From Siphonodentalium dalli (lineage: Eukaryota > Mollusca > Scaphopoda > Gadilida > Siphonodentaliidae), in NCBI GenBank assembly GCA_032622095.1, contig CP136069.1:123310126-123374125 (forward strand): a stretch of 64,000 nucleotides of DNA, written 5' to 3'. Made by a program: the position numbers and the translations under genes. This document shows positions 12,690 through 64,000 of the stretch, piece by piece. The notes under the pieces were generated by a model. The model had not been told where the DNA came from. It saw only the letters and a list, made by a program, of their open reading frames with translations, and made no database searches. Each line of letters begins with the position of its first letter. Within the stretch, counting starts at the first letter, position 1.

Positions 12690-13325
12690 ACACATGTACA
12701 ACCCACCCATTACCCCAGTCACCCCATATGCACATAAACACCACACAACTGACAACATAGTCACCCACTTTATACACGTACTAGTACACCTGATCATACA
12801 GCCATACTTGGTTATACCCGTACATACCACAAATGACCATACAGCCACGAGTCACCATGCATGAACACCAGGTATACACCTACACCCGACACATGACCAT
12901 ATATGTATACATATTCACTACATTCACGATCATACAGTCACTCATTGTATACATATTCACCTCACCATGGACCATACAGCCACTACATGTATACCTATTC
13001 GCCATACCCATGACCATAGAGTCAATCCAGGTATACATATGCACATCACCAATGGTGAGCCCATCCAGATATACCAATATCCGCACATACGACCACTCAT
13101 AAGTTCCATACTTGCCATACTCATACACGCCATCCATGATAATAAATCTACTCCCCATACACCACCAATGATAACACATCCACAACATATATAAATATAC
13201 GTCCCATCGTTACCAACAGGGCACTCCCTATATACCCACACATCATTCATGACCATACAATAACTCCCTGTATTATCTATTACCTATTATCCTCATCTAT
13301 GATCATATAGTAACTCCCTGGCTGC
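12690..13325 (-). repeat. Degenerate minisatellite (right arm, palindrome 1)
   Basis: Reverse-complement counterpart of the 10080-11706 array, shorter by about 1 kb. The core reads CCATACAGCCACT and GTATACATATTCACCTCACC. It is repeated almost exactly at 40825-41450 in the second assembly block. Confidence 0.85.
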
Positions 13326-15402
13326 CATCTTGGCTTCCACCCTGTATCCAGTTGATACATTTGTATCATAATGGGCCAGAATACCCAATATATGGTTCAT
13401 CTCAGTTCCGTCTCAAAGTTCTGCCCATTTCCTTTCAATAATATGGCCAGAATCACAAAAGAGGTTCTCCGCAAAATTCCATACTGCAACTTTAAAATGT
13501 ATTTGTCATGCCCCATACGGAACTGGGACAAGCATAATAGAACGTAGTTGTCAGTTAATTTGCATTGTAACTAACACGTACAATAACCAAGTGAATCACA
13601 ATTTGCCACCCTTTTCGGATAACGCAGAGAATAATGTTCGGGATATTTACAAATTTGGTTGCCATTTTGGAAGCCATCTTGAGCAATTTAGTCTATAAAC
13701 ACCGTAGTGTGACACATTTAAGATAGACCAAAACAATAAACACCTTTCAATCCAAAGATAGTTACATTTTACTTGAACAAATGGTCGAACCCTGAAAAGT
13801 GAATTTTTGCCGATATTTATGTCAAGTGTGTGAGAGAATAATCCAATATTTCTGGTGATGTCAGTGGTGACAATAGTAAAAATGATCCATGGTGCATCAG
13901 ACATGTTAGTATGCAATGTGTAGAAAACATATTAGCCAATCGTGTACATCAAGCACAACTTGTAAGCGATTGCAGGACACCCTGGGGCAATATTTACCAT
14001 TTTCCATATTTTGGCGGCCATTTTCGCAGCCATTTAGAGCCAAGGTAAGATTTATGGTTCCAGAGATTTGGATATTCATAGGTAATGATATGCCTCACTT
14101 ACATTACAATGTTCTTTTCATTTCTTGTTGAAATATGATCGGGTTGTGGGGGGGGGGGGGGGGTTACAAGTCTCGTTCTTATCAGAAAACGACATGAATA
14201 TATATTTCTTAAGTTGATCGTATCGAATTAGGGATGTATTGGTTGTGTAATAGTGCAACGTTCCAGGGGCGTGCGCACATACACACACGTTGGACGAATG
14301 CAATCATGTAAATAAAAGTGATTTTTTACGTTTTGAAGGGCAACCCGATGACCCCCTTCTTATCTTAAAACCCCAGGAAAAGTTGCTTCTTAAGTTGTGT
14401 TTTTATAATTAGTATATATCAAAGTACTTTGAAACCAAAAATTATGGATGTATGCGAAAGTGTAAAAAAAAGTGAAAAATCACGTTTTGGGGTTCAGCAT
14501 GGGACCCCCTTTCTTATCTGAAAACCCCAGGAAAATCCCTTTCTTAAGTTGTGTTTTCTTAATCAGTACACTTAGGAGTATCATCAAACCAAAATTCATC
14601 GATGTACGCGGAAGTGTAAATAGAAGTGATTTTTGGCACTTTTTGGGGTTCAGCGGCCCCTAAACCCCAGGAATGCGCAACTTAAGAAATCGGTTTTTCA
14701 GAATGTTCCATTATTGGTACCAACTTTAGGGGGTCAAACCTTTTGTACGCAAAAGTGTGAATAGAACATATGCGGGCTCCCTAACTATACAGGCTGTACT
14801 GTTTGTGTGATCATCATAAAATTTGTCATGAATGTTGACATTTACATGTAGATGGGAACGAGTCATTTTAGGATCATTCGGCCAAAAAACATGGCCGCTG
14901 GTGGCAATCTTGGATTTAACTCTTTGCATCACTAAATCCTTTGACACATCCTACAGACCACATCTCTGATCTGATCATTACCAAACTTCATATGGATCAT
15001 CGGGGTGACCTCTAGATGGGAACGAGTCATTTTGGGGTCATTTGGCCAAAAAACATGGCCGCTGTCGGCCATCTTGGATTTTACTCTTTGCATCACTAAA
15101 TACTTTCACACACTCTACAGACCACAACCCTGATCCGTTCATCACCAAACTTCATATTCATCATTGGGGTGGCCCCTAGTTGGGCACGAATCATTTTGGG
15201 GGTAATTTGGCCAAAAAACATGGCCACTGGTGGCCATCTTTGATTTCAAAATTGAATCCATTGGCGCGGTCTACAGGTCGTACTGTTTGTCTGATCATCA
15301 TAAAATTTGTCATGAATGTTTACATGTAGATGGGAACGAGTCATTTTGGGATCAATCAGCCAAAAAACATGGCCGCTGGTGGCCATTTTGGATTTTACTC
15401 TT
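12705..15402 (+). repeat. Large duplication block A, copy 1
   Basis: Matches 40825-43895 in direct orientation (offset 28120 at the left edge) with few substitutions. The main difference is a missing segment of about 365 bp in this copy after 14138. The match stops at 15402, where this copy runs into AGGATATC and the other continues TGCATCAC. The partner begins exactly at the edge of an N gap. Confidence 0.95.
14765..15402 (+). repeat. Tandem units of about 165-180 bp with AAACATGGCCGC core
   Basis: Successive units read GATGGGAACGAGTCATTTTGG, GGCCAAAAAACATGGCC, GGCCATCTTGGATTTTACTC and TTTGCATCACTAAAT. Related arrays are at 8050-8215, 26206-27187, 43270-44230 and 59765-60746. Their open frames (for example HVFWPNDPKMTRSHL) arise from repetition and do not show a conserved domain. 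Confidence 0.8.
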
Positions 15403-15479
15403 AGGATATCAGGACATGCTAGAATAGGGATTCATGGTCTGATGTCCGTCCGCGGACGAGTTAATTACTTCACCTATGC

Positions 15480-15725
15480 ATGAATACACACCTTCACGTT
15501 TTTATTCTTCAAAAATGGCGATGCTACTACTGTCAAAAGAAAGTTGGAGATGGGAACGCCACACTACAACACACACTCGCCAATCACGGTGATCGTGAGA
15601 TCACGCTCCTCTACTCCGATTGCGATGGCACACGTTATACGGTCAGACATTTTGGTGTATACCCCATGCATTTTTTGGACAGGGATGTTGATAATATGAA
15701 AATAGGGTTTTTTCCCCTGATTTAA
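15480..15725 (+). pseudogene. Possible C2H2-finger protein fragment, perhaps transposon-derived
   Basis: An 81-codon frame with a plausible zinc-finger pattern, CYYC then LQHTLANH (C-x2-C, then H-x4-H), followed by LLYSDCDGTRYTVRHFG. Residues before about position 12 look random. No start context, splice sites or longer frame support a host gene. Small N-terminal C2H2 or BED-type fingers are common on transposon ORF products, so a decayed element fragment is the more likely reading. The assignment is tentative. Confidence 0.3.
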
Positions 15726-15743
15726 GTCAATAAGTAAACCATA

Positions 15744-15929
15744 CAGTAATGCTCTAATTAATCAACTCCTTAACCACAGCAGAATTATGGATAACTTTTC
15801 AGGATTTAGTCGGAAATATGGCTCGAGAGCTTTTCGATGAATGGCAACAAGCCATATTTCCGACTAAATCCTGAAAAGTTACCCATAATTATGCTGTGGT
15901 TAAGAAGTCGATTAATTAGAGCATCACTG
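15744..15929. mobile_element. Palindromic mariner-type MITE (CAGTAATGCTCTAATTAATC ends)
   Basis: The left arm CAGTAATGCTCTAATTA... and right arm ...TAATTAGAGCATCACTG are inverted repeats extending about 85-90 bp toward the centre, flanked on both sides by TA (15742-15743 and 15930-15931). This fits TA-targeting Tc1/mariner/pogo-type non-autonomous elements. A fuller copy is at 25149-25361, and single arms are at 23108-23197 and 56858-56945. Confidence 0.85.
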
Positions 15930-16240
15930 TATGAGGTAAGAAAGCCCGCATGCAGTGACACTGCATGCATGTATAGGATATTACCACAGTAAAGGCTAAA
16001 ATTTGTGCAAAAATAAATTAAAAACATCATACAAAAAAATACTAGAGTTCCGGGAAGTAGACATCAATTCTTTGGATAGAGGGATGCTGATAATATGTAA
16101 TTAGGGATTCTCATTGTTGAACACAAACTCACAGTTGACTGTTGAGTACAGGTTAAAATTAGCTCAATGCTCATCTTGTGTTGCTAGGTGATACACCAGG
16201 TCATGCTAATAGTTTATGGGTAGGTTAGATAGTAGTCACA

Positions 16241-16344
16241 ATTACACTTAAGCGCAATTGATTGCGCTTAAGTGCAATTGATTGCGCTTAAGCGCAATTA
16301 ATTACGCTTAAGCGTAAATGCCCTATTTGCGCTTAAGCACAATT
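16241..16344. repeat. 20-bp palindromic tandem array centred on CTTAAG
   Basis: Units start at 16241, 16261, 16281 and 16301, with a fifth at 16325, each close to ATTGCGCTTAAGCGCAAT, itself a perfect palindrome. The first four are exactly 20 bp apart. No gene is adjacent. Confidence 0.9.
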
Positions 16345-17844
16345 CATTATTAAATGTGAATTTGGCCTCCCATACAATACATATGACTCACACCCAAGTG
16401 GATTATCCACATGAATGTGAGCCACACAAGAAAACACATAGCGAAGACAAATAGTATAAATAGAAAATAATTGCAAAATGGCTATAAGAATAGACATGTA
16501 ATCCATACAACTGACCCCAAGCATGTGGTGTAAACCACTAAGGTCCATGACAATAAATATATGAATACATGAATATATAAATACGAATAATGAAAATCCA
16601 ACATTGGTGCATACACACATGATGGCGTCACAAATCAGAAACAGAGCACTGACCACCAAAACGACGCAAATGTCGAAATAAAACAATTATACATACAAAC
16701 GGCCACTCAAATACACACATAAACATATATATATATACACTTACACATTTGCGGGTTTGTAATTTGGCGTTCGCAATGAAAATCTGGTCACGATTATCGG
16801 GGAACATCAATGAACGATGAGAATAAAAACACCCCCCACTGGTCCATCAACGTTCTATCACCCCGTGATACACATGCAATGTGTAGTTTAGCTCTTTTTT
16901 AGCCACAGCAGGACTAGTAGCGTGGGATTACTCTATTAAAACACTCTTACTACCTGATTGTGTTGTAAGTTTTGCTCGAATGGACCTAATTGCATGAACC
17001 TGTGTATAGTCATAGCTGATATCGTGTTTAGTTTTTCGCGGTTATTCCACCAAACTACGTAAGAATGTTTGAGGTTTTCCGGTTTCGACTGCTCGGTTGT
17101 TTCAAAATCTCAGCATGATATTTTACATGAAACATGATATTTGTGAACACTGGTGCAACAGTTTCTGTTGGGGATATAACAAGGATAATGACCTATTAAT
17201 TGCCATAAACCAACCAACTATGTCACATTCCAAGATTGGCCACAATTACAGTTACACAATAAAAATACGTTCGACAACCATTTCCTGAACAAGAATTGAG
17301 CGTTTGTTATCAGTTATATCCAATAGAACACATAGAAATAATTATAGATTACATAGTTCATGCATATACTCCCCATTGCGTTTGCTACCCCAGAAATACG
17401 TGATTAATCGAACAAAGTATGCCTTTATGGACGTATATGCGACGCAAAATAACATATTAAGTTTATTACCCCCTAACCAACGCATAATATTTAGTATTTA
17501 TTCGCTTTTTTGCTTGTTATAGCACAATACATGATCCTGGGGAGAGCACTTGACTATTGGGAGAGCACTGAGCACTCTGTTAAGTATCGGAATATAATTA
17601 TAAAATGTCGATTTACAGGCATTCCTACGGATTTCTTACATTTTCTCACATATCAATGTGAACATCAATATAAATAATCCATTGGTTAAAAGAAACCTGC
17701 AATATACTTACATAATCTGTAATTTTTCTTCACTTTTGTGCGGCGAAAATAAAAAATCCACAGTAAAGCACCGGAATGTCACGATAAAAATTGCTCAAAA
17801 AATTGGTAGAGCACCACATTGCTAGGAATAGATCCTCCACAGTG

Positions 17845-19639
17845 CGGCTGCTAGAGCTATTCAAAATGTGGACATGCTTGAATTTCAAATAAGATGCATA
17901 TGGTGTGACTGTTTGAAATATGTGACATTTCATATCGGATGAGGACAAACAGGAATCGTCTCGGTGAAATATTAACGGAAATCAGCTGGGAAAGTTTGAT
18001 TTGGTGGAGAAAATAGCAGTTAAAAACAGACATCGTGAATATAATCAACAAATCTTACTGATCGGCTCGATATTTCGAAGTTTGGTCAATGAACATAGAT
18101 AAAATCAATGGCCAGTATTTTTATATATAACAGCTATCAATGAATGCTCACACATATATAGTATTCCTCACGATATAAATTCTTACCATTTTCTGCAATG
18201 TCTTGTCCCTTTCTATTGAAAATGCAAGAACACACTGACATTGGCAAATGCGCACCTTGTCCACACCTGAATGCGAACTAGTTCTCATGAGGCAGGTGCG
18301 ACCCCGTGCTATTATAACAAACTATGCCCAGAATCATGGGTGGGAGTTATCTTGCTTGTTTGTCTTTGGTCAAATGGACGCTTTGCATATATGAACAGAG
18401 GGCAGCCTTTTTCAAGCATGATGATGTCAAACATGCTTATATCAGAGGTCCGCTGAATGTCAAAGAAATGAGAATTATATGTAAACAAAGCCTTGTTTTC
18501 CAGAGAATTTATATTTGTCACGCAATCAGAAAATGTATGTAAACAATATATAAAACGATCACGGTAAATGATATATCATTTTGATGACGGATTAATCGCG
18601 GACATGTCAGATGAATAATCACATTCAGCGGTTACCGTGTAAATGTGGTACGTCTTTTCATTGAAAGTCTGTAGAGTGAAAGGTCTAAACCAGCCTCATT
18701 CCAACTGATATACCAAGCTGTTGAGAACAGAGAAGACTTGGTCTATGCAAGGGGAACCGTAGTCCCATCTATAGTAGTTTTGTTTTGGAATCTGGGCCAT
18801 GGAGAAGGTTCTCCAACAATATCTATAACATTATTTAGTTTTTTCATAGAAACGTATAGTGTACCATATATATAGAGAATTGAGTCCAGGTATTTTGAGT
18901 ATAGCTATTGCAACAATAGGACATTTCTATCAAAGTTCTGAAGGTAGCCAGACCACAAAAGGTAATGACCAGCAAACGATGCATTCTGTAAAGTTAGGAA
19001 ATGTCATTATTTTCTATTATCAGTGTTACCGCAAGAGTTTTCGCTTAATTGTTGGTGGAGTTAACATTGCATTCACAATTCAATATAAAACATAAAGTAG
19101 AATTGAGTATGTATTTGTGCCTCAAGATCACAAGTTGTTAACATTCCATACCCAGAGTTGTAATTTTTTACAGAAATAATGTTCAATTATTCTTTGATTA
19201 ACACTTTCATATATTTGGTGTAAAGAAAATAATGACATTTTTTCCAGTGTTCGATTAGAAATTTTGTAGAGGTGCGGTTTTGTGTGACACTTTTCTCAAA
19301 ACACGAGAACTAAACTTCATTTCTATCAATAGCGCGATGACTGAATAACTGGTGTGATTAATAACATGGAGAAATAATAGTATTACGCTCCATTTTTTCT
19401 AAAAATTTGGCAGCGTAGAAAACAAGACAGTCAATGACTACCAGACTGTAAAGACGGAGAAGACTGGGACTCTGAAGACTACATAGTCAGTACGTTGTTA
19501 TAACGTAATTAGTTTTTCAAAATTTAAATTAAAATTTTTTTTAAAAGGAGTAAAATGTTGTTTTTTTCATTTAAAATTAATTATTTTGTTTGTTAAATTA
19601 AGCTAATGCTTAATTAAATCATTTTTTTTTTTTTTTTTT
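17845..19639. other. Non-coding AT-rich DNA in block B
   Basis: No credible exon is visible. Small frames here (for example 18324-18542 and 18859-19095) are preserved in copy 2 simply because the whole block is nearly identical, which is not evidence of coding. A short dispersed repeat lies near 19430-19495 (CAGACTGTAAAGACGGAGAAG), with relatives at 44863-44925 and 53149-53215. Confidence 0.6.
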
Positions 19640-19978
19640 AAAGATATTGACCCTGGCTCTGCCCATGTTTTCCCAGTGACCCCATTTTAACAGATCTGAA
19701 CCCCAGTAATCCAAGGACCCTACATGCCAAATATAAGGTTAATGGTTCTTGAGAAGAAGTTGTTTTAAGACTTAATCTGGAGGGAAAGAGTTATGGCCCT
19801 GACTTTGCAACTATTTGACTTAGTGACCTCATTTTAGTCATCTAGGGAACATCCACACCAAATATGAACCCATTCAGTCTTATGGGTCTGGAGAAGAAGA
19901 TGTTTAAACAATTTTTGATGGAAGGACGGATGATGGCCGACGAGCTCCACAGGAGATTTTGCCTCAGGTGAGCTTAAA
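19640..19978 (+). mobile_element. Dispersed element with GTTATGGCCCTG units and GTGAGCTTAAAA end
   Basis: Units containing CCCCAGTAATCCAAGGACC, GAGTTATGGCCCTGACTTTG and ACATCCACACCAAATATGAAC are followed by GAGCTCCACAGGAGATTTTG and the terminus CAGGTGAGCTTAAAA. Relatives are at 20706-22262 (interrupted), 49790-50302, about 53370-53707 and 54433-56009. This style of repeat is widespread in molluscan genomes as I know them. Coding capacity is absent. Confidence 0.65.
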
Positions 19979-20705
19979 ACTATAATCACGGGAACCGATA
20001 TATTAGTACCAAACTTGAACTCAACAACTCAAATAGTTTGTCCTATGGAGGGGGTTAAAGTTTTTGCAGTGAGTGGCTAACTCTTAAACTTATAAAGCTG
20101 TCTGTATTAGAAAGTCTCAATCAACAAAAGGTGGTCCACACAAACTACAGAACCATTCATAGGGTAGAAATTAATTCACTAAAAGGAAGTGTTAAAACTG
20201 TATAAACAACATATTTTCACTGACCCACCACTGATTAGAGACTGAAGGCTCCTGGGAATACATGTGACATTCAATTTCAAAACTAATTACCAAAACAAAA
20301 CCCTCTGGCTGGAGAGAGCAGACTGGTATTATTTTCACTGTTAGAGTTAATATTCTAGCATATGCACAGGGTGTATTGCATTGTGACTGTGAAATATATT
20401 TAAAACAGGTGTTTGATAACAGGGATGCTAGAAGCACCAATGGGCAAGGCAATGACTTGTTAGATGGTGGTTTATTTTTTATTGAAATAAGGCATCAGTG
20501 TATCTCGTGTGCTGTCAAATTTTGCCAAGAATATTTCTATCTGATGAAAATGGATGAGGGTGAGGAGGTTCTTTAATATTTGTGTCTTTAATAATTAACT
20601 TAAAAAAATATATATATATTATTGAACTAATTAAAAAAATATTTAATTTAAAATAATTTTTTTTTTTGAATTGATCAAGGAGTTTAATCTAATTTGTTTT
20701 GTTCT

Positions 20706-22262
20706 TTAGTTATGTCCCTGGCTCCGCCCACATTTGACCCAGTGACCTCATTTGAACAAATCTGAACCCCAGTCACCCAAGGATCCTTCATACCAAATAT
20801 GAACCCATTCAACCCGATGGTACAAGAGAAGAAGTCGTTTTAACCCTTTGAACCCTGGCTCCCCACAGCGATCGACACCATGACACCATGGCTCCCTGTG
20901 TTATTTTTTATTTATTGTAGACTTTGTTTAGGCGCAATGTGTGGGTTCTGTTTAAGTGGTGCCATAGATCTGAAACTTTACATGTATGTTCCCCATGGAC
21001 CACTGAGTATTTTAAGACCGGGATACATTGCCACAAGATCACTCCCTGGCAACGGTTGCTATGCAGCTACCCGAAATTGAATATAAAATGCAATTATAGC
21101 TTTTATCGACGTATTTCAGCCCTAGGAAATGGCATTTTCGATGCAGCCCATGCCCCATTGTGAAATTTGTTATATATCTGGCCGGATGAGTGAACCAAAC
21201 TTTTGTTTAAGGGTAGCAACGGTTGCTAACTCCAAATGATCCAATGACACCATTGCCCTGAGCATTCAATCGTATTATGTCTCATTTTAGACATTGCCTA
21301 GGCGCATGTTACGTTTTTTCCGAAATCACGTGACGAGCGTTTCGGTCGGTCTCGTCGACAATCAAATTCCAGAGTGCATCATCCCAAAATAAATTTAAGC
21401 AATCCACCTTGGGGTGTACTGTCCAAACTTATTGAAGTTGGTACATTCTTTGGTCCCGGCTTCTCTTTCGGTGTAAGGTACGAATAACAAACCAATTTGC
21501 GTCCATTTTCAACGTATGGACATTATGATCACCGTGACTAATTGCAGGTATGAAGCCACGCCCCCTGCCACGCCCCTACCTCGACATAAGCTCCGCCCAC
21601 TTCCACAACACCTCAACTACCCCATACATTGATCTCTTGTCGTATCTCTATTTGAAAAAACGCCACCCGCTCCTGGATTGACTGAATCTCTCCCAGTGTC
21701 AATGTGCTTTCGTTCTCCCATTCTAACTCACAAATGGCGTAGTCATCATCATCAAAATCTTCCGCGTCCGATTCCAAAATTTGCCGGACCACCTCACCTC
21801 GTCTACCGAAAATGTTTTAGGCTTCATAATTCATTATGTTGTGTGCTTAAACACAATAGCAACAAGACACTAACAAAAACATAATTATTGGACAAGCAGA
21901 CGACCGCGATGGTGTATGTAAACAACAAACACGTGGCGGTCAATATATGGCCGGTCCGGGGTATTTGGAGGTTCACGCTGCGGCCGGTTTTCCGGCCGCT
22001 CGGGTTCAAAGGGTTTAAGAAATACTATGGAGGGAAAGAGTTATGGCCCTGTCTTCGCAACTATTTGACCCAGTGTCCTCATTTGAACAAATCTGAATGT
22101 TAGTCACCTAGGGCACATCCACACCAAATATGAACCCATTCGGTCTTATGGATTGGGAGAAGATGTTTAAAGAATTGTTGACGGATGGATGGACAGATGG
22201 ACGACGGACGAGGAGTGATGACTATAGCTCCACCGGAGACTTCGTCTCAGGTGAGCTAAAAA
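20706..22262 (+). mobile_element. Same dispersed family, split by a piggyBac-type insertion
   Basis: The left part 20706-20843 runs up to GAAGTCGTTTTAA. The right part 22014-22262 resumes TTTAAGAAATACTATGGAGG and continues to the CAGGTGAGCTAAAA end. The interruption is the 1.17-kb element at 20844-22013. The nesting gives a relative age, with this family older than the insertion. Confidence 0.75.
20844..22013 (-). mobile_element. Internally deleted piggyBac-type transposon
   Basis: Terminal inverted repeats CCCTTTGAACCC and GGGTTCAAAGGG abut TTAA on the left and TTTAA on the right. Piggybac elements insert at TTAA and have ends beginning CCC. On the minus strand (about 21640-21830) is a start-like MKPKTFSVDE followed, after a shift of frame, by an acidic stretch (VVRQILESDAEDFDDDDYA). 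This resembles the acidic N-terminus of piggyBac transposases. A direct GAGGT repeat at the junction explains the frameshift. The DDD catalytic core is missing. The copy at 54572-55759 shares the same lesion. Confidence 0.65.
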
Positions 22263-22513
22263 GTAAACCGAGAACGGGATGTGGCAACAAACCACAAAGA
22301 AGTGATTACAGAGTGTGAAATAGCCCTGGCATGAAGTGAAGAACTAGTGTGATCGATTCATAGAATTTATTCATCAGAGAATCAATAAAATAAATACTAT
22401 CTTAATCTTATAAACAAATGAAGGACGGAATGTAAAACTTGAGTAGTAGCAAGTTCAAAGAATGCGGACACTATTTGTAAGCCATATAGGAAATTATCTT
22501 GGTTGATCAAAAT

Positions 22514-22768
22514 ATTTGTGACTAGCTGAAACAGGCTCCATTTGGGAGCCTTTATTCAGCGTTGGAGGACTGCGGCCTGCCGCACAAAGTTACATCTTAG
22601 ACAGCAGTGGCACCTTTGTGCACTTTGCACACGTTTTGGCCATTTATATAATCAAAATTTTGAAAAACTAATGCCAAGTCACCAAACCAAATTTAGTTGA
22701 AATCGGTCCAAGGGTCTGGGAGATAAGTCAGAACAGACCGACAGACATATCCTACTCTATATATACAT
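22514..22768 (+). repeat. Non-LTR retroelement 3' tail
   Basis: CCAAATTTAGTTGAAATCGG, AAGGGTCTGGGAGATAAG and an AGACCGACAGACATA end followed by an AT-rich simple tail are typical of RTE/CR1-type 3' UTR fragments. GGCTCCATTTGGGAGCC forms a small hairpin at its start. No coding sequence is present. Copy 2 is at about 56268-56530. Confidence 0.5.
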
Positions 22769-23107
22769 GTATATATAGATAATGAAACTACTGTAAAAGA
22801 CAGTTTTCCCCAAACTCAGTGACATAAAATATGGGTGTTTTCCATGTCCACACCAGTAATATGATTATTAAATGTAAACAAGAAGTTACATGTGTTTTCA
22901 TCCGATTTTCAGAGTATCGCATAATATACTACTGGTATATTCATAATGAGTCTGGCTCTGATGTTATGAGTATTTATCACTGTATTGCAGGAATATTATG
23001 CATTATGATGAAGCTCAATTACCTGAAAGCATATTCGTATCTTTGTATTAAGTTACATTAAGTATGCCATGCAACATTGCTGTTTCCAAAATACAAAGAA
23101 TAATAGT

Positions 23108-23197
23108 TTTCCAATGAATGGCAACAAGCCATATTTCCGACTAAATCCTGAAAAGTTACCCATAATTCTGCTGTGGTTAAGGAGTCTAGGGCATTAC
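23108..23197 (+). mobile_element. Single arm of the CAGTAATGCTCTAATTA MITE
   Basis: GATGAATGGCAACAAGCC through AAATCCTGAAAAGTTACCC to GGCATTACTATATG matches one arm of the palindromic MITE at 25149-25361, without its partner arm. The same half-copy is in copy 2 (56858-56945). It lies just downstream of the IFT74 stop, possibly in its 3'UTR. Confidence 0.75.
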
Positions 23198-23366
23198 TAT
23201 ATGTCTTTGACAACATCTATCTTAACCCTTTCTATACTAAATGGAATCTCCATTCATGTTATAAAAGTACACAATGGAATGGTCTATTATTCATCTGGAG
23301 GGGTTCTCAGGAAAAAAAAGCAGACGACAGATATTAAAAGTGCAGAAGGAATCCTATTTAATGGAG

Positions 23367-23434
23367 GGAAATGTTCAGATAATAAGTTCAATAAACGACC
23401 TATGGTTTGTTGAACTTATTATCAGAACATTTCC
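23367..23434. repeat. 25-bp-arm hairpin downstream of IFT74
   Basis: GGAAATGTTC(A)GATAATAAG... at 23367-23391 pairs with 23410-23434 with one mismatch, leaving an 18-base loop. It is identical in copy 2 (57114-57181). A single arm recurs at about 27414-27438. It lies about 120 bp beyond the IFT74 stop on the gene's 3' side, so it may be transcribed in the 3'UTR, or it may be a hairpin MITE remnant. Confidence 0.8.
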
Positions 23435-23557
23435 TAAGGGATAACTACTCATCAATGAATATTTAGTATTTTGACAGGTGATGGAAACATAGTACAGGAA
23501 CGCTCAAAACAATTCTTCATGGTCAGCTGATCAATATCCTGTCGGCTGTCGTGGAGA

Positions 23558-24437: not shown

Positions 24438-24516
24438 ATTATATACAGATTATAAGCAGTGATTCTTGCAGGTGAAATCATTGCTGTTTGTTTATCATTG
24501 GTTAATTTGTCCTGAA

Positions 24517-25361: not shown

Positions 25362-25424
25362 TACCTTCGGTAAAGTTCCATTCATAATCCAAGTTCCAAC
25401 CAAAAATAAACAATAAAAGGATAC

Positions 25425-28286: not shown

Positions 28287-28329
28287 AGATGGGATAGGAT
28301 AATTTTATTTACAATATACACATGAAATA

Positions 28330-34020: not shown

Positions 34021-34022
34021 GA

Positions 34023-53369: not shown

Positions 53370-53707
53370 TTAAGATATTGACCCTATCTGCCCATGTTTT
53401 CCCAGTGACCCCATTTTAACAGATCTGAACCCCAGTAATCCAAGGACCCTCCATGCCAAATATAAGCTTAATGGTTCTTGAGAAGAAGTTGTTTTAAGAC
53501 TTAATCTGGAGGGAAAGAGTTATGGCCCTGACTTTGCAACTATTTGACTTAGTGACCTCATTTTAGTCATCTAGGGAACATCCACACCAAATATGAACCC
53601 ATTCAGTCTTATGGGTCTGGAGAAGAAGATGTTTAAACAATGTTTTATGGAAGGACGGATGATGGCTGACGAGCTCCACAGGAGATTTTGCCTCAGGTGA
53701 GCTTAAA
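53370..53707 (+). mobile_element. Dispersed GTTATGGCCCTG element (copy of 19640-19978)
   Basis: Same sequence and end (CAGGTGAGCTTAAAA), with small indels. One GCTC-type word is lost near 53385. Confidence 0.65.
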
Positions 53708-54432
53708 ACTATAATCACGGGAACCGATATATTAGTACCAACTTGAACTCAACAACTCAAATAGTTTGTCCTATGGAGGGGGTTAAAGTTTTTGCAGTGA
53801 GTGGCTAACTCTTAAACTTATAAAGCTGTCTGTATTAGAAACAGTCTCAATCAACAAAAGGTGGTCCACACAAACTACAGAACCATTCATAGGGTAGAAA
53901 TTAATTCACTAAAAGGAAGTGTTAAAACTGTATAAACAACATATTTTCACTGACCCACCACTGATTAGAGACTGAAGGCTCCTGGGAATACATTTGACAT
54001 TCAACTTCAAAACTAATTACCAAAACAAAACCCTCTGGCTGGAGAGAGCAGACTGGTATTATTTTCACTGTTAGAGATAATATTCTATCATATGCACAGG
54101 GTGTATTGCATTGTGACTGTGAAATATATTTAAAACAGGTGTTTGATAACAGGGATGCTAGAAGCACCAATGGGCAAGGCAATGACTTGTTAGATGGTGG
54201 TTTATTTTTTATTGAAATAAGGCATCAGTGTATCTCGTGTGCTGTCAAATTTTGCCAAGAATATTTCTATCCGATGAAAATGGATGAGGGTGAGGGGGTT
54301 CTTTAATATTTGTGTCTTTAATAATTAACTTAAAAAAATATATATATTATTGAACTAATTAAAAAAATATTTAATTTAAAATTAAATGTTTTTTTTAATT
54401 GATCAAGGAGTTTAATCTAAAATTTTATTTTT

Positions 54433-56009
54433 TTTAGTTATGTCCCTGGCTCCGCCCACATTTGACCCAGTGACCTCATTTGAACAAATCTGAACCCCAG
54501 TCACCCAAGGATTCTTCATACCAAATATGAACCCATTCAACCCGATGGTACAAGAGAAGAAGTCGTTTTAACCCTTTGAACCCTGGCTCCCCACAGCGAT
54601 CGACACCATGACCCTCGGCTCCCAGTGTTATTTTTTATTTATTGTAGACTTTGTTTAGGCGCAATGTGTGGGTTCTGTTTAAGTGGTGCCATAGATCTGA
54701 AACTTTACATGTATGTTCCCCATGGACCACTGAGTATTTTAAGACCGGGATACATTGCCACACGATCACTCCCTGGCAACGGTTGCTATGCAGCTACCCG
54801 AAATTGAATATAAAATGCAATTATAGCTTTTATCGACGTATTTCAGCCCTAGGAAATGGCGTTTTCGATGCAGCCCATGCCCCATTGTGAAATTTGTTAT
54901 ATATCTGGCCGGATGAGTGAACCAAACTTATGTTTAAGGGTAGCAACGGTTGCTAACCCCAAATGATCCAATGACACCATTGCCCTGAGCATTCAATCGT
55001 ATTATGTCCCATTTTAGACATTGCCTAGGCGCATGTTACGTTTTTCCGAAATCATGTGACGAGCGTTTCAGTCGGTCTCGTCGACAATCAAATGCCAGAG
55101 TGCATCATCCCAAAATAAATTTAAGCAATCCACCTTGGGGTGTACTGTCCAAACTTATTGAAGTTGGTACATTCTTTGGTCCAGGCTTCTCTTTCGGTGT
55201 AAGGTACGAATAACAAACGAATATGCGTCCATTTTCAACGTATGGACATTATGATCACCGTGACTAATTGCAGGTATGAAGCCACGCCCCCTGCCACGCC
55301 CCTACCTCAACATAAGCTCCGCCCACTTCCACAACACCTCAACTACCCCATACATTGATCTCTTGTCGTATCTCTATTTGAAACAACGCCACCCGCGACT
55401 GGCGTCTGAATCTCTCCCAGTGTCAATGTGCTTTCGTTCTCCCATTCTAACTCACAAATGGCGTAGTCATCATCATCAAAATCTTCCGCGTCCGATTCCA
55501 AAATTTGCCGGACCACCTCACCTCGTCTACAGAAAATGTTTTAGGCTTCATAATTCATTATGTTGTGTGCTTAAACACAATAGCAACAAGACACTAACAA
55601 AAACATAATTATTGGACAAGCAGACGACCGCGATGGTGTATGTAAACAACAAACACGTGGTGGTCGATATATGGCCGGTCCAGCGGCCAGTATACCGGAC
55701 GCTGGGGTATTCGGAGGTTCACGCTGCGGTCGGTTTTCCGGCCGCTCGGGTTCAAAGGGTTTAAGAAATACTATATGGAGGGAAAGAGTTATGGCCCTGT
55801 CTTCGCAACTATTTGACCCAGTGTCCTCATTTGAACAAATCTGAATGTTAGTCACCTAGGGAACATCCACACCAAATATGAACCCATTCGGTCTTATGGA
55901 TTGGGAGAAGATGTTTAAAGAATTGTTGACGGATGGATGGACAGATGGACGACGGACGAGGAGTGATGACTATAGCTCCACCGGAGACTTCGTCTCAGGT
56001 GAGCTAAAA
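54433..56009 (+). mobile_element. Dispersed GTTATGGCCCTG element split by piggyBac-type insertion (copy 2)
   Basis: Left part 54433-54571 and right part 55760-56009 flank the insertion exactly as in copy 1. Confidence 0.75.
54572..55759 (-). mobile_element. Internally deleted piggyBac-type transposon (copy 2)
   Basis: Same CCCTTTGAACCC / GGGTTCAAAGGG ends and TTAA context as 20844-22013, about 18 bp longer through small indels (for example near 55681-55705). It keeps the same GAGGT duplication that shifts the N-terminal frame, so the inactivation predates the split of the two copies. Confidence 0.65.
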
Positions 56010-57113
56010 AGTAAACCGAGAACGGGATGTGGCAACAAACCACAAAGAAGTGATTACAGAGTGTGAAATAGCCCTGGCATGAAGTGAAGAACTAGTGTGA
56101 TGATTCATAGAATTTATTCATCAGAGAATCAATAAAATAAATACTATCTTAATCTTATAAACAAATGAAGGACGGAATGTAAAACTTGAGTAGTAGCAAG
56201 TTCAAAGAATGCGGACACTATTTGTAAGCCATATAGGAAATTATCTTGGTTGATCAAAATATTTGTGACTAGCTGAAACAGGCTCCATTTGGGAGCCTTT
56301 ATTCAGCGTTGGAGGACTGCGGCCTGCCGCACAAAGTTACATCTTAGACAGCAGTGGCACCTTTGTGTGCTTTGCACACGTTTTGGCCATTTATATAATC
56401 AAAATTTTGAAAAACTAATGCCAAGTCACCAAACCAAATTTAGTTGAAATCGGTCCAAGGGTCTGGGAGATAAGTCAGAACAGACCGACAGACATATCCT
56501 ACTCTATATATACATGTATATATAGATAATGAAACTACTGTAAAAGACAGTTTTCCCCAAACTCAGTGACATAAAATATGGGTGTTTTCCATGTCCACAC
56601 CAGTAATATGATTATTAAATGTAAACAAGAAGTTACATGTGTTTTCATCCGATTTTCAGAGTATCGCATAATATACTACTGGTATATTCATAATGAGTCT
56701 GGCTCTGATGTTATGAGTATTTATCACTGTATTGCAGGAATATTATGCATTATGATGAAGCTCAATTACCTGAAAGCATATTCGTATCTTTGTATTAAAT
56801 TACATTAAGTATGCCATGCAACATTGCTGTTTCCAAAATACAAAGAATAATAGTTTTCCAATGAATGGCAACAAGCCATATTTCCGACTAAATCCTGAAA
56901 AGTTACCCATAATTCTGCTGTGGTTAAGGAGTCCAGGGCATTACTATATGTCTTTGACAGCATCTATCTTAACCCTTTCTATACTAAATGGAATCTCCAT
57001 TCATGTTATAAAAGTACACAATGGAATGGTCTATTATTCATCTGGAGGGGTTCTCAGGAAAAAAAAGCAGACGACAGATATTAAAAGTGCAGAAGGAATC
57101 CTATTTAATGGAG

Positions 57114-57181
57114 GGAAATGTTCAGATAATAAGTTCAATAAACGACCTATGGTTTGTTGAACTTATTATCAGAACATTTCC
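57114..57181. repeat. 25-bp-arm hairpin downstream of IFT74 (copy 2)
   Basis: Identical in structure to 23367-23434. Confidence 0.8.
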
Positions 57182-57304
57182 TAAGGGATAACTACTCATC
57201 AATGAATATTTAGTATTTTGACAGGTGATGGAAACATAGTACAGGAACGCTCAAAACAATTCTTCATGGTCAGCTGATCAATATCCTGTCGGCTGTCGTG
57301 GAGA

Positions 57305-57423
57305 TCACATGGCCGATTTTTTCGTCAGCTGATTTTGTAGGAGTTGATTATAGTCGTTCATGGCCTCGCTGACTCTCTTTGATATTGACCTGTAATCACA
57401 CTCCATGGATTTGGCAGCAATAA
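57305..57423 (-). CDS. IFT74: IFT74, terminal coding exon (copy 2)
   Basis: Same length and phase as 23558-23676, encoding FIAAKSMECDYR to QNQLTKKSAM and TGA. The acceptor is intact (one intronic base differs). Under the haplotype reading this is the other allele of the same exon. Confidence 0.9.
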
Positions 57424-57755
57424 CTGTTCAATAGTTAAGGTAAACAAATTTAAAATGTAAGCTCAATTATGCCACAATTTTTGCAAAACTCATTAGATGT
57501 CAAATCACTCAATAAAACCTGGTTTGTCCATGGACATATTAGACTAATTACACTTATGAGTATACAATATTAATTTACTTCTAATTCTTGAGAATTTCAA
57601 AGTTTTGCAATAACAATGATACTTATAACTATAAAGCAATGTGAAACATTCATTTTTGGTAATTTGATAGAAATAGAAAATAACCTTAGTAGTTATTCTC
57701 CTAAGTTTTATATCCAAATTGTCAACAAACAAAGTCATTCTTATATATGAACAAA

Positions 57756-58182
57756 CCTTGAAATAGTGTGTCTGTCATTTGCAGAATGAGGTCTCCAGAA
57801 GGTGAATTTCATGAGCTATCCTGCACAGCGGGCTAGCATCACCAAATTCACCCTCTGGAGACCTCATTCTGCTTAGGCCTAATTTTCTGGTAAGTATCTA
57901 TAGTCTCAAAATAACTGGGTTTTTTTGGTCACTTCTGTTCAATTTCAATATCCCCTAATTTGCAGAAGATCAAATGCATAATCGAGGTGACTAATGGGTG
58001 AACATCACCAACATCAACTGGGGAACTTCAATCTGATTCTAGGTATCCCATATCAGTTGCCTAAGCAGAATGAGGATCCCAAAGGGTGAATTTGGTGATG
58101 CTAGCTCACCATGCAGGATAACGACACTAAATTCACCCTCTGGGGACCTCATTCTGCAAATAACAGACACACTATTTCAAGG
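57756..58182. mobile_element. Nested-palindrome MITE (copy of 24009-24437)
   Basis: Same ends and site. Small substitutions and a short T-run difference. Confidence 0.8.
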
Positions 58183-58261
58183 ATTATATACAGATTATAA
58201 GCAGTGATTCTTGCAGGTGAAATCATTGCTGTTTGTTTATCATTGGTTAATTTGTCCTGAA

Positions 58262-58698
58262 TTAAAGGTACTCAGTCCGATTCGATGGTCCCCATATCAT
58301 CAGATTCCAACAACAACAACATTTTTTGAAATGCCACTTCAATTATCATATAATGCTAATCACAATCAACTATATAATAAAATTGCCCAAAACGTGTTAA
58401 TTATCAACATTTTGTTCGACGAAATTTGGCCGAATTGTCAAATATCTAACACCCAAAGTCACTTGATTTTAGAGTTATCCATCTTCATCCGCAATTTGTT
58501 CCGAGACTGTCAGCTTGACGAATATTTACCAGGCGGCCCAAAATTACATATCTGGGGAAACAACAAATTTCAAAAATCGATATCTGATCACTCTGGGCTT
58601 TAATGGGTGGGTTCCTCGACTCCAATAAAATATTTTTTACCCCCTGAAGTCAAAGAAATAGTAATTTGGGAGCGTTAATTCGGATTTTACATCTTTAA
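58262..58698 (+). mobile_element. TTAAAGRT MITE (copy of 24517-24953)
   Basis: Same boundaries. A handful of substitutions. Confidence 0.75.
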
Positions 58699-58980
58699 GG
58701 AGTATATATTTTTAATTTATGTATTTCAGACGTTTTCTGAAATTATGCACGATCGATGTGGTTGGAGTTTTCTGCAATAGTACTTTATTGTAGTCTGGAT
58801 ATTCACTCATCAGTTTGGCTCACTAAACTAAGGGTATAAATATATCTTTACCTGCAATGTTTGGAAAATTGAAATGACTGAAACATTACAACATTAGTGA
58901 CATACCTTCGGTAAAGTTCCATTCATAATCCAAGTTCCAACCATAATCATGTTTACCAAAAATAAACAATAAAAGGATAC

Positions 58981-59041
58981 ATTCTTTCATGACGAAGTTA
59001 TTCTGTTCATGGTGCTGCCATTTCTTCTCAAGGTTGCCAAG
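58981..59041 (-). CDS. IFT74: IFT74, penultimate coding exon (copy 2)
   Basis: 61 bp, encoding LGNLEKKWQHHEQNNFVMKE plus one base, with donor and acceptor as in 25425-25485. The adjacent intron lacks the 213-bp MITE found in copy 1. Confidence 0.92.
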
Positions 59042-59187
59042 CTGCAAATATTAAGCGAATTATCAGTGACACAGTGAACAAGCGAGTACCTGGACAGAAA
59101 TGCTCCCTTGGAGATTGAATTCCAGTAGCCGGCAGAAAGTAGCTTCCGGGATAATAATTGATCCATGCATTGAAAACTAATTTCAGT

Positions 59188-59606
59188 CAAGCCTGGATAT
59201 AGTGTGACTGACATTTGCAGAATGATGTCCCCAGAGGGTGAATTTAGTGACGCTATCTCATAATCTGGGAACCTCATTCAACTTAGGCCTCATCTACTGG
59301 GAAGTATCTATAGTCTCAAATTAACATTGTTTCAAATGAGTTACTTTTCCCCTCTGTTCAGTTTCTATATCCTCTAATTTGCAGAAGATAAATTGCATTA
59401 TCAAGGTGACTATTGGGTGAACATCACCAATTTTAACTGGGGAACTTCATTCTGATTCTAGGTCTCCCATAGCAGTTGAAGTCTAAGCAGAATGAGGTCC
59501 CAGAGAGTGAGTTGGCGGTGCTAGCCCACTGTACAGGATAGCTTCGCTAAATTCATCCTCTGGGGACATCATTATGCAAATGTCAGACACACAATATCCA
59601 GACTTG
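59188..59606. mobile_element. Nested-palindrome MITE (copy of 25632-26050)
   Basis: Same ends and internal arms. Confidence 0.8.
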
Positions 59607-59764
59607 ATTTATGCTTGATAATAAAAGCCTTGATTGCAGTCTAATGTAAATAATAAATGGATAACTATTTTTATTATTAAATTAATCTATAAACAAGGGG
59701 AGCGCATCGGAAGACGGTGCTTGTCAAGTTTTTTTGCCTGAGAGAGTGGATCTGTCGCAAAAGA

Positions 59765-60746
59765 ATCATTGGCGGCCATGATTTTTTTAAAGAAACTTCG
59801 GGAAAAAGGGAGGCTCCCATCCAGAGGTCACCCTGACAATCCATATAAAGTTTGGTGACGATTGGATGAGAAATGTGACCTGTAAGGTGTGCTAAAGGAT
59901 ATAGTCATACAAAGAGTAAATCCAAGATGGCCACTGGCAGCCATGTTTTTTAACAGAAAATGGTAAGAACCCATCTAGATGTCACCCCGAAGATATTTTA
60001 GATTGCAAAGAGTAAAATCCATGATGGTTGCCGGCGTTTTTTATCGAAAATCGTTCAAATTCAATAGCTCCCATCTAGAGGTGATCCTAGACTCATATAC
60101 CGGATATCGTTGACCATGTTTTTTAATGAATTTCTGAAGTAATCTAGAGGTCACTCCAACAATTGGTGGTGATCAAATGAGGAATGTGGCCTGTAGGGTG
60201 TGCCGAAGGATTTAGCCATATACAAAATCTAAGATGGACACTGGCAGCCATGTTTTTCCACAAATTTCAGAAAAAAATTGATGGCTCCCATCTAGAAGTC
60301 ACCCTGAAGATCCAGATATTGTTTGGTGATTATCGAATGCAGGATGTGGTCTGTAGGGTGTGCCAAACGATTTAGACAGACAAAGAATAAGATCCAAGAT
60401 GGCTGCCAGCGTCCATGTTTTTCAGCGAAAATCACTCAAATTTGATAGCTCCCATCTAGAGGTGATCCTAAAAATGCCTGCATATTTTCAAAATATTTCT
60501 CCAATAAATGTGGGCTGCAGGGTGTGCCAATGGATTCAAATTTGAAATAAAAAACGGCTGCTGGCTGCAATGTTTTTTAACGAATTTTGGAAAAAACGAT
60601 GGCTCCCATCTAGAGGTCACCCCAAAGATCATCGGATGAGGGATGCGGTCTGTAAGGTGAGCCAAAAGAAATTGTTAACGGACGCATGCACAGATAACAA
60701 CCCATGGCAATAGCTCAAACTTTTCATAAAGTTGAGCTAAAAACCT
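59765..60746 (-). repeat. Degenerate tandem array (copy of 26206-27187)
   Basis: Same units and same AGTTGAGCTAAAAACC terminus. The sequence just before it (59725-59740) differs from copy 1. Confidence 0.75.
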
Positions 60747-61062
60747 TGTAGTGTGATTGCTTTGATATGAACCATGATCATGCATAGACCAACAAAGATG
60801 GTCAACACAGGCAAAATATCCATAAAATTTCTCAATGTGGATAAATATTTCATACCTGTATATAGGACACATGTGTCCCGAACAGCACCTGTATACATGT
60901 GCAATGAGTGGACACAGCAACTGTGAAATTGTTTAACCCTTTCTGTACTAGATCTATACTCATTGATGATTAGTTATCCTATAGGAAATGTTCAGATAAT
61001 AAGTTCGACAAATGACCATAGGTCAAATGTTGAAAATGTTCACTACGAGTATAGTAATTTAC

Positions 61063-61188
61063 CTGAGCATAAGTTTCATTTGTATTCAGACTGGCCTTCT
61101 TTGATTCACATTCTGCAGCCAAGACAACCATCATCTTCTTAAAATTATCTCGCCTCTTTTGCAGTGTTACTCGGTCTGCCATGAGTTT
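61063..61188 (-). CDS. IFT74: IFT74 coding exon (copy 2), last one before the window end
   Basis: 126 bp, phase 0 at both ends, encoding KLMADRVTLQKRRDNFKKMM to NTNETYAQ as in 27499-27624. The next upstream exon is expected roughly 1 kb past the window end, by analogy with copy 1. Confidence 0.92.
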
Positions 61189-61451
61189 CTGATGAGAATA
61201 AAAGTGAGAACACACTGGAGTAATAAACAATATACATCTTAAATGTAATTCGGGGTAATTAGGCCAAATAAATAACAATATACTGTGTTCTCGTGGACCT
61301 TCCTTATCACCGGAAGACGACATCATTATAACAACTTATTGTCAAATTAACCCAGAAAATAACAGAAAGAGTTCAAAACTCAATTTCCCATTTTATTCAC
61401 AATTTTAAATTCAGAAAGTATTCTGATGAAGAGGTAATGGCTAAAAAGCAT

Positions 61452-61884
61452 TTAAAGATGCATTATCCAATTAAGCGCCTCTCAATTACTATTTATTTGG
61501 ATTCGGGGGTAAAAAATATTTGATTCGAGTCGAGGAACCCACCTATCAAAGCTCAGAGTTATTAGATATCAATTTTTGAAATCTATTATTTTTCACCATT
61601 AAGAGTTATTATTGGCCCAGTAAAAAGCTGACGAGAGTCGATCTCGGACCAAATTGTGGATGAAGATGGATAACTCTAAAATCAAGAGGCATTGTGTTGA
61701 TAATAACACCAAATTTCGATGAACAACATTTTGATAAATAACACGTTTCGGACAATTTTATACTAGCTAGCATTATTTTTGGGCAATTAATCAATTCTGA
61801 TAACTGAAGCGGCATTTCTAGAAATGTTGGTTTTGTTGGAATCTGATTATATGGGGACCATCAAATCTGATTGAGTACCTTTAA
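61452..61884 (-). mobile_element. TTAAAGRT MITE (copy of 27883-28286, fuller end)
   Basis: Retains TTAAAGATGCATTATCC at the left end, lost in copy 1, and has additional internal sequence near 61741-61770. Confidence 0.7.
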
Positions 61885-61927
61885 AGATGGGATAGGATAA
61901 TTTTATTTACAATATACACATGAAATA

Positions 61928-63685
61928 AACACCGCACAAAATGTAAGTTCCCCCCTAAATGACGACCGATATTTTCCGAATTAATGATCGGATATTGATT
62001 TAATTTGGCATGTATGTTCTATAGCATTCTGCCAGTGTGTAGCATAAATTTAAATGTTCTGGTCCATTGCATGCTCGACTGGTCAACAATTGAAGATGAA
62101 AATGATGTTTTTTCGAAATCGCACTTCACCATTCGGAGGTCCATAGCTTCGGCGAAAAATGGGTTACCCTCGCGTTCTTTATCTCTTGGGCGGTATCGGT
62201 ATAACGACAGATTGGGATAATCCCCAATTTGACCTGTAGTCATGGTGCGGCCGATGCATTGCACAGAATCGATGTCACCCCACTTTTTTGGATACAGATT
62301 CAGTTCAATTTGTGCGATCTCATGCACACAACGATGCCGCACCTTACAGAACAGGATCGTGCGATTGCCATTGGGCTTTTGGAAGCCAATACTCCAGTAA
62401 AGCAGGTAGCGCGGAGAATGGGTGTGTCGCCGAATGCCAATCGGAAACTACGGGCAAAATTTCAGCAAACTGGTTCGGTGAAGGATCGACCAAAGAGCGG
62501 GCATCCAAAAGTGACAACACCACGCGATGACAGGTTTATCGCATTGACGGCACTGAGGAGGCGAACACTTACAGGTGCGAAGGACATTTTCGTTATTGCG
62601 AAAATATCCATTTTATTTTTTTCGTAACACAACCAAGTTTTTCAGCTGTAGAGATACGAGACCAGGTGCACAGTCGCTGGTAGAGGGGCCAGAAGACTCA
62701 GCCGCCAGACCATCCGGAACCGGCTATATGGTGCCCAGCTACGGGCCCGGCGTTTGGTGAAAAAGGCAGCCCTCCTGATGCGACACAAGGCAGCGAGGTT
62801 GGCATGGGCCAGACATCACGTATGCTGGACAAGACGACAATGGGCAAACGTCTTATTCACTGACGAGACGAGGGTTTGTCTGCGACATGTTGATGACAGA
62901 AGACGAGTTTGGCGCCGTCGCGGGGAGCAGCACGCAGACTGTTGTGTTCAACCAGTGACGGCTTATGGTGGCGGCAGCGTCATGGTTTGGGGAGGGATTC
63001 GCACTGGTACCAAGACAGAACTGGTCCCGATCAACGGCAACCTCAACGGTGTGATGTACCTGGACAATGTGCTCCTACCATATGTCATCCCACAAGCTCA
63101 GGTGGCTGGTAACCAGCTCGTACTTATGGATGACAATGCCCGCCCCCACCGAGCCCGGGTTGTGAACGAGTTTCTGATTGCCAATGGGATCGAGCGAATG
63201 GTATGGCCGGCAAATTCCCCGATCTGAATCCCATCGAACACTTATGGGATCAACTCAAGAGGGCTGTTTACCGGCGAGTTGACGAGGGGACCACTATGGT
63301 TGATCTGCGGTGTCTTTTACAAGAGGAATGGGCAGCAATTCCGCAAAACCGTGTGGCAAAGCGTGTGAACACCATGAGGGCAAGATGTCAACACGTCCTG
63401 CATTGACACGGAAGTTACACCAGATATTGAACAGTCACGAACTCAAAAAAATCAAATTCCCTACCCGAAATCAATGAATTAAATGTTCTGTAGAATTAAA
63501 ATTGACCCCTTGTTTGGTTACTTGCTGCTCATTGAACCATGTCGCTATGAATATGTTCACAAATAAGCGCATCATATTGGTAAATGGACCATTGTAATAA
63601 GTGTGAAATTTCATAAATATCCACCCATAATATTTGGAATTATTGGTCATTATATGAGGGGGGAACTCACTTTTTGTGTTGTGTT
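61928..63685 (+). mobile_element. Tc1/mariner-type transposon (copy 2)
   Basis: Same insertion site, TA flanks (61926-61927, 63686-63687) and ends as 28330-30110, slightly shorter through deletions. Confidence 0.88.
62322..63406 (+). pseudogene. Tc1-like DDE transposase, inactivated by other lesions (copy 2)
   Basis: Exon-like part one (62322-62574) is open here, unlike copy 1, with GAA at the position of copy 1's stop. The intron-like gap is 62575-62645 (71 bp, against 91 in copy 1). Part two has a 2-bp loss near 62669 and a 1-bp loss near 63220, just before the catalytic E segment. It ends at a TGA (63404-63406) that is a sense codon (CGA) in copy 1. D in FTDE, D in LMDDNARPH and E in NPIEHLWD are recognisable across frames. 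Confidence 0.88.
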
Positions 63686-63714
63686 TAGTATAATAGCAGT
63701 CGTCCTGAAAATAT

Positions 63715-64000
63715 GGTGCTGGACATTTGCAAAATGAAATCCCCAGAAGGTGAATTTAGTGACGCTCCCCCGCACAGTTGTCTAGCATCACTAAATTCAC
63801 CTTCTGGGGACCTCATTCTGCTTAGGCCTCATCTTCTCTGGAAAGTATCTTTATTCTAAAATTAACAAGTTTTTTAGTTTCTTTAGAAAATTTATTTTCA
63901 TTTTTCAGTTTAGTTTACCGGTATCTATATCCCCAAATTGGCAGATGACACAACCCATAATTGAGGTACCCTATGGGTGTGCACATCACCATCTTCCCCA
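63715..64000 (+). mobile_element. Partial nested-palindrome MITE (copy of 30147-30440)
   Basis: Same arrangement beside the Tc1-type element, cut by the window end. Confidence 0.6.

Follow-up and report, generated by a model that had tools for sequence, protein, structure and literature searches.

In the window considered here (the whole stretch of DNA analysed, 64 kb long), two alleles of one heterozygous place have very probably been assembled as separate contig ends and scaffolded across a gap. The doubling would thus be an ordinary assembly matter, and what looks like another partial copy of the cilia gene IFT74 is almost certainly spurious. The elements that define the arrangement, in window numbering (used throughout, also for positions past the window edge), are the following:

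12705 to 40724, forward strand: copy 1, the last 28,020 bases of contig 1, colinear with contig 2
40725 to 40824, no strand: scaffold gap of exactly 100 N, the only gap in the window, separating the copies
40825 to 64000, forward strand: copy 2, forming the start of contig 2; the whole copy runs to 80935, outside the window, and measures 40,111 bases

The self-BLAST comparison returned colinear blocks in both copies (12705 to 14138 with 40825 to 42264, 14118 to 15402 with 42606 to 43895, 17870 to 25149 with 51573 to 58905, and 25347 to 30424 with 58885 to 63998), and the pairing continues outside the window, where 30425 to 40724 correspond to 64131 to 80935. These blocks bear out what an earlier note on this DNA had described, namely, blocks occurring twice in the same order with small differences, the second series starting from the first base after the gap. 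In particular, the first base of contig 2 (40825) pairs with 12705, with 84 of 84 initial bases identical, and the final base of contig 1 (40724) pairs with 80935 (C9:123391060), 16.9 kb past the window edge; the dovetail is thus exact to the base at both contig ends. Since the match reaches both exact ends, it points to overlapping contigs of one place rather than to a tandem repeat broken at random.

None of the same-strand 20-mers tested from the 100 bases past 80935 occurs in contig 1, and positions 1 to 12704 have no colinear counterpart in contig 2 up to 104000. The 20-mers of 12665 to 12685, which recur at 67474, were considered as a continuation of the overlap and rejected, as they seem to mark where a dispersed repeat ends. 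The family PF04774 (SERBP1/HABP4) has a single match in the genome (three of three candidates scored), at C9:123309585-123309716, 410 bases to the left of the window, and the exon at 3002 to 3256, which we take to be SERBP1-like, gave no Pfam match at E up to 0.01. This exon lies in the part without a counterpart, and the doubled unit begins at 12705, so that the proposal of the earlier note that the whole SERBP1-IFT74 interval is allelic does not hold.

The arrangement could also be read as a tandem duplication, real and recent, of some 28 to 40 kb that broke inside IFT74; a 5'-truncated copy would then lie to the left of the gene with the 5' exons, and the assembly would have to break precisely at the junction. 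Order and orientation fit such a direct repeat, but the junction would be unique sequence at which the assembler had no reason to stop, breaks being expected within the repeat, and the gap coincides to the base with both ends of the match. Where a true tandem duplication would offer a sequenced junction between the copies, the 100-N gap stands. We regard a real duplication of this kind as very unlikely; what discriminates is the dovetail, exact to the base at the gap, the earlier note having already argued that such an event would need a breakpoint exactly there.

The gene interrupted at the gap was identified with a 104-aa two-exon query, residues 13 to 99 of which match PDB 8bd7 chain G, "Intraflagellar transport protein 74" (E 0.00074, 23 bits), the sole PDB sequence matched by it at E up to 0.001. 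The exons in the window are as follows:

40195 to 40278, reverse strand: IFT74 exon, copy 1, edges approximate; counterpart at 80405 to 80488, outside the window, 84/84 nt identical
31459 to 31623, reverse strand: IFT74 exon, copy 1, edges approximate; counterpart at 65153 to 65317, outside the window, 1/165 nt different
27499 to 27624, reverse strand: IFT74 exon, copy 1, edges approximate
61063 to 61188, reverse strand: IFT74 exon, copy 2, 126/126 nt identical to 27499 to 27624
25426 to 25488, reverse strand: probable next 3' IFT74 exon, copy 1, presumed from a short motif
58982 to 59044, reverse strand: probable next 3' IFT74 exon, copy 2, presumed from the same motif

A genome-wide search with a 331-aa IFT74 composite gave 12 matches, every one at this place, with six 5' exons found once (one of them at E 0.11 only) and three 3' exons found twice. 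Past the overlap, contig 2 holds seven further 5' exons (82979 to 100043), six of which were those recovered by the genome-wide search, and it carries every IFT74 exon found. Thus, IFT74 is indeed cut at the gap, as had been noted, while the impression that only its last exons reappear reflected where the window ends. The truncation had also been held against a real duplication, an argument that we set aside, since a tandem duplication would be expected to leave just such a 5'-truncated copy beside the full gene. The three doubled exons differ at 1 of 375 nt, with amino acids unchanged, and this lack of decay in a truncated copy speaks against a real duplication, although a recent origin would explain it too.

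The exact divergence between the copies, a figure that the earlier note had looked for from a self-alignment, is 1.23% (279 substitutions in 22,704 aligned bases), accompanied by 57 short indels and by larger differences at ten junctions. The substitutions are scattered across all eleven aligned blocks. Within the overlap, a Tc1-like stretch (28300 to 30000) is 4.06% divergent (68/1674) versus 1.16% for the rest of its block, and mismatches of CpG type make up 22 of its 68 versus 6 of 39 in that remainder. This excess counts against the haplotype reading, and a mosaic or second event was considered for it; faster CpG decay explains only part of it. The difference in length between the copies comes largely from copy-specific segments:

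15403 to 17869, no strand: segment of copy 1 only, 2467 bases; its middle (16300 to 17100) is a dispersed repeat, with other copies about 90 to 98% identical
43896 to 51572, no strand: segment of copy 2 only, 7677 bases; its middle (46500 to 47300) is a dispersed repeat, with best other copies 99 to 100% identical
25150 to 25346, no strand: short palindromic element, copy 1 only
33906 to 35326, no strand: 1421 bases in copy 1 versus 49 in copy 2
36957 to 38006, no strand: 1050 bases in copy 1 versus 76 in copy 2

The first two segments were searched genome-wide, and both carry dispersed repeats: at least 45 matches on 8 of 9 contigs for 16300 to 17100 (40 of 1474 candidates scored) and at least 42 on all 9 contigs for 46500 to 47300 (40 of 107 candidates scored), the query included in each case. 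One haplotype assembled twice from sequencing errors (homotype false duplication) would likewise leave a gap between the copies; however, errors would not create kilobase-size differences, two of them with dispersed repeats, nor substitutions over all eleven blocks, and we consider this origin extremely improbable.

Low divergence alone proves nothing and was rejected as a discriminator, since a near-identical tandem pair of kinase sequences exists on C3 without a gap (3.4 kb shared at 98.3% identity, 13 kb apart, no N within 20 kb); that at least one such pair exists in the genome is also a point in favor of a real duplication at IFT74. As a yardstick for heterozygosity, the passages of PMC7203741 used here give 0.6 to 1.6% for their test genomes, which are other genomes than this one, and the 1.23% found here can be set beside this range and beside 0.22 to 2.02% in 10 of 13 near-identical pairs elsewhere in this genome. 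The 13 pairs were picked by hand and eye, mostly for location on the same chromosome, and are no census. Ten have shared flanks, with members 0.27 to 3.4 Mb apart on the same chromosome, five in direct and five in inverted orientation; the other three failed (L013/L014 at 7.35%, L027/L028 at 7.06%, and L029/L030 at 3.66%). To judge by their sequences, the ten verified pairs look as unpurged haplotypes would be expected to look. That these pairs, half of them inverted, and the IFT74 pair are instead real recent intrachromosomal duplications, from a burst of segmental duplication that truncated genes such as IFT74, seems highly improbable.

Further near-ties were observed on single chromosomes (among them C3:80.57/80.67, C3:86.52/86.85, C6:67.68/67.90/67.95, C7:183.24/183.68, C6:159.53/159.67, C7:117.450/117.455, C1:187.953/187.962, C9:113.1136/113.1142, C5:193.393/193.399, the C2:42.6-43.3 group, and many in the C5 Ras cluster); location on one chromosome applies to the ten verified pairs and to three two-way ties of equal score and equal range, but not to all ties. 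Across chromosomes, there are one Ras exon (C1:49.52/C5:69.84) and many Helicase_C matches, lying in open reading frames some 140 to 320 aa long, which we took for putative mobile elements. On C2, 96 TSSK6-like kinase matches are clustered, which was judged more curious than the IFT74 doubling; in a literature search on TSSK arrays, none of the titles listed (10 of 20) concerned such an array.

On the very probable reading that two haplotypes were joined end to end, contig 1, from one haplotype, enters from the SERBP1 side and ends within IFT74, and contig 2, from the other, begins 28 kb earlier within a dispersed repeat and continues through 5' IFT74. The allelic overlap would have gone unrecognized and hence untrimmed, probably on account of substitutions at about 1.2% between the haplotypes together with copy-specific segments amounting to several kilobases, and a scaffolder would then have placed one contig after the other, separated by a gap of nominally 100 N. 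In that case, IFT74 would be single copy, and the tandem duplication would not exist. The haplotype reading of the earlier note is thus favored by the exact dovetail and the exon copy numbers, with a divergence that may be of the size of heterozygosity, but not its extent: the putative allelic stretch is 12705 to 40724 with 40825 to 80935, rather than the second half of the window.

It follows that, for this assembly, gene counts and any tandem or segmental duplication claimed should be checked by read depth, the 3' exons of IFT74 being liable to annotation as a second, truncated gene; the same caution extends to the 10 of 13 hand-picked pairs that look alike. If allelic, the overlap would provide a pair of alleles that differ by several insertions, from which the activity of mobile elements could be measured.

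A tandem duplication specific to one allele, with both homologues mixed in the assembly, is mentioned in the portion of PMC9516828 drawn on here, where the case sat inside one contig; at IFT74 it would require two things, a duplication and an assembly break where its copies meet, the sequence gives no reason to assume it, and its probability appears almost negligible. The comparison with known systems agrees better with two described classes. Unlike ours, which is known from sequence alone, these were defined, in the parts of the sources used, by a read-depth criterion (purge_dups, PMC7203741) and by read depth, linked reads, and k-mers (PMC9516828). Overlaps retained among primary contigs are a class described in the former, and the heterozygous contig overlap removed by purge_dups resembles the present one in its colinear contig ends, arising from haplotype divergence and both retained in the primary assembly; here, the colinear match runs up to both contig ends (12705/40825 and 40724/80935). 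Moreover, the published marks of false duplication in the latter include a gap between a duplicated pair on the same scaffold, as found here at 40725 to 40824, and its false heterotype (haplotypic) duplication with false gene gain shares with our case an adjacent duplicate on one scaffold, a gap in between, and the repetition of part of a gene.

The alignment of the window to itself revealed near-identical colinear blocks in two series, one from 12705 and one from 40825, which bears out the claims of the earlier note that blocks recur in the same order with small differences and that the second series begins at the first base after a 100-N gap. The features concerned are listed below in window numbering, continued past 64000 for the DNA to the right.

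Features of the repeat and of IFT74
12705-40724: copy 1, right end of contig 1
40725-40824: 100 N, single gap within the window
40825-80935: copy 2, left end of contig 2
25426-25488 and 58982-59044, minus strand: further 3' IFT74 exon, presumed from a short motif
82979-100043, minus strand: span of seven 5' IFT74 exons

When 40 kb right of the window were added and contig 1 (1-40724) was aligned to contig 2 (40825 onwards), the series comprised eleven blocks and stopped at the last base of contig 1, whose partner, 80935, is C9:123391060. At the left end of the overlap the first 84 bases are identical, and at the right end 98 of the last 100; in the 100 bases right of 80935, no tested same-strand 20-mer is present in contig 1. 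Among the 20-mers tested in the 100 bases left of 12705, two (12665-12685) are present in contig 2, at 67474, apparently as the end of a dispersed repeat. Since the match reaches the first base of contig 2 and the last base of contig 1 and ends there, the overlap is a dovetail, of 28,020 b in contig 1 against 40,111 b in contig 2. The proposal that the second half of the window is the other haplotype of the first is thus supported, with the doubled unit corrected to 12705-40724 and 40825-80935. The stretches 10108-11705, 12624-13241 and 35327-36956 are dispersed sequence, related to one another and containing degenerate internal repeats; contig 2 starts within the counterpart of one of the three, a plausible site for an assembly break.

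The window (C9:123310126-123374125) belongs to a genome of 2,226,750,531 bases in 9 contigs, whose sole PF04774 match found is the SERBP1-like sequence at the left edge, at C9:123309585-123309716, 410 b outside the window. IFT74 is encoded by the minus strand, and a two-exon peptide matched PDB 8bd7, "Intraflagellar transport protein 74" (E 0.00074). A 331-aa composite of IFT74 exons, searched genome-wide with all 117 candidates scored, gave 12 matches, every one of which lies at this locus. Six 5' exons had one match each, in one case with an E of just 0.11, and three 3' exons had two each, one per contig; a seventh 5' exon (87580-87627), missed by this search, was seen in other comparisons of the locus. 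The three doubled exons differ at 1 of 375 nt, with all amino acids the same. Every IFT74 exon found is on contig 2, where the gene is likely complete. As to the claim that IFT74 is cut at the gap and that only its last exons reappear, contig 1 does stop after 3' exons, but contig 2 also carries the seven 5' exons.

A real tandem duplication with its junction coinciding with the gap would agree with the block order and the truncated IFT74; however, the assembler would have to halt exactly at a unique junction, and we regard this explanation as very improbable. We are confident instead that the assembly retains a heterozygous contig overlap, which scaffolding converted into a false tandem duplication.

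The earlier note had called for a self-alignment to obtain the exact divergence; the alignment of the two contigs gave, over the eleven blocks (adjacent ones overlapping by 36 b in contig 1), 279 substitutions in 22,704 aligned bases (1.23%; 144 transitions) and 57 short indels totalling 260 b. Substitution divergence per block ranges from 0.21% to 2.12%. The copies diverge most at 28300-30000 (counterpart within 58885-63998), where 68 of 1674 aligned bases are mismatched (4.06%); for the remainder of that block the figure is 39 of 3366 (1.16%). This most diverged stretch contains part of a Tc1-like transposase (DDE_3, E 3.4e-11; HTH_Tnp_Tc3_2, E 1.8e-9). CpG-type mismatches number 22 of 68 there, only a third of the differences, versus 6 of 39 in the rest of the block.

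Much of the length difference between the copies is accounted for by larger segments at ten junctions.

Copy-specific segments
Different sequence at one junction: 7677 b in copy 2 in place of 2467 b in copy 1
Extra pieces in copy 2: 4535, 3885, 574, 341 and 132 b
Copy 1, 1421 b; copy 2, 49 b
Copy 1, 1050 b; copy 2, 76 b
Extra pieces in copy 1: 197 and 123 b

The genome search covered parts of two segments. The copy 1 part, 16300-17100, has at least 45 matches, spread over 8 of the 9 contigs, and among the 40 of 1474 candidates scored the full-length matches besides the query itself are 90-95% identical; the copy 2 part, 46500-47300, has at least 42 on all 9, the best others at 99-100% among the 40 of 107 scored. 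Both are dispersed repeats, and thus at least at these two segments the copies differ by the presence of elements, as alleles may. A short palindromic element, about 218 b long and self-matching in both orientations, occurs at 25145-25363, 15740-15931 and, beyond the window, 92372-92589; that at 25150-25346 is in copy 1 and missing from copy 2.

Elsewhere in the genome, five families were searched and 13 pairs with equal or near-equal score and range chosen by eye, the 6 or 8 kb around each match being then aligned. In 10 of these 13, a sample that is no census and whose majority was chosen for lying on one chromosome, the exon surroundings match across 3.1-7.8 kb with 0.22-2.02% substitutions; the other three fail (7.35, 7.06 and 3.66% divergence). 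Each of the ten lies on a single chromosome at a spacing of 0.27-3.4 Mb, five direct and five inverted, as would be expected from the scaffolding of unrecognised second-haplotype contigs. Three two-way ties (equal score and range in one family table), chosen regardless of chromosome, were all same-chromosome; cross-chromosome ties are present in the tables, mostly Helicase_C matches, which we took for putative mobile elements. A real duplication may account for one of the ten, C2:163.70/163.98, which is located among clustered similar genes. Two close pairs served as a contrast: that on C1 shows diverged similarity only, whereas at C3:108991000-109011000 (comparison stretches L032 and L033) a kinase gene is surrounded by a gap-free tandem repeat (3.4 kb, 98.3% identity), probably a real recent duplication. 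Since near-identical gap-free tandem repeats thus exist in this genome, divergence as the sole discriminator was rejected.

A further cluster, C2:149826753-150603706 (0.78 Mb), holds at least 96 of the genome's at least 135 Pkinase matches (134 of 984 candidates scored); among the 96 listed, 95 are on one strand and 67 of equal score. Within it, a 7-kb stretch (C2:150285000-150292000, L031) carries three 281-aa kinase open frames 2889 b apart and identical to the base; among solved structures, testis-specific kinase 6 is the closest to them in sequence (E 2.5e-56). Judged from sequence, the cluster would be a tandem array of TSSK6-like genes, between which lies a repetitive 432-aa open frame; its two sub-arrays, with spacings of about 2.36 and 2.89 kb, may, at a guess, be two haplotypes again, and it merits separate study. 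A dense cluster of Ras-family exons occurs at C5:69788735-70214201, with exons of similar score at C1:49.52 Mb.

The repeat at IFT74 is an ordinary assembly matter, which serves as a caution for gene counts. The marks of false duplication described in PMC9516828 include half depth, a same-scaffold gap between the pair, discordant linked reads and single-copy k-mers, and here the duplicated pair is separated on one scaffold by the 100 N. Overlaps retained among primary contigs through haplotype divergence are a class described in PMC7203741, whose authors state that, to their knowledge, scaffolders do not handle them.
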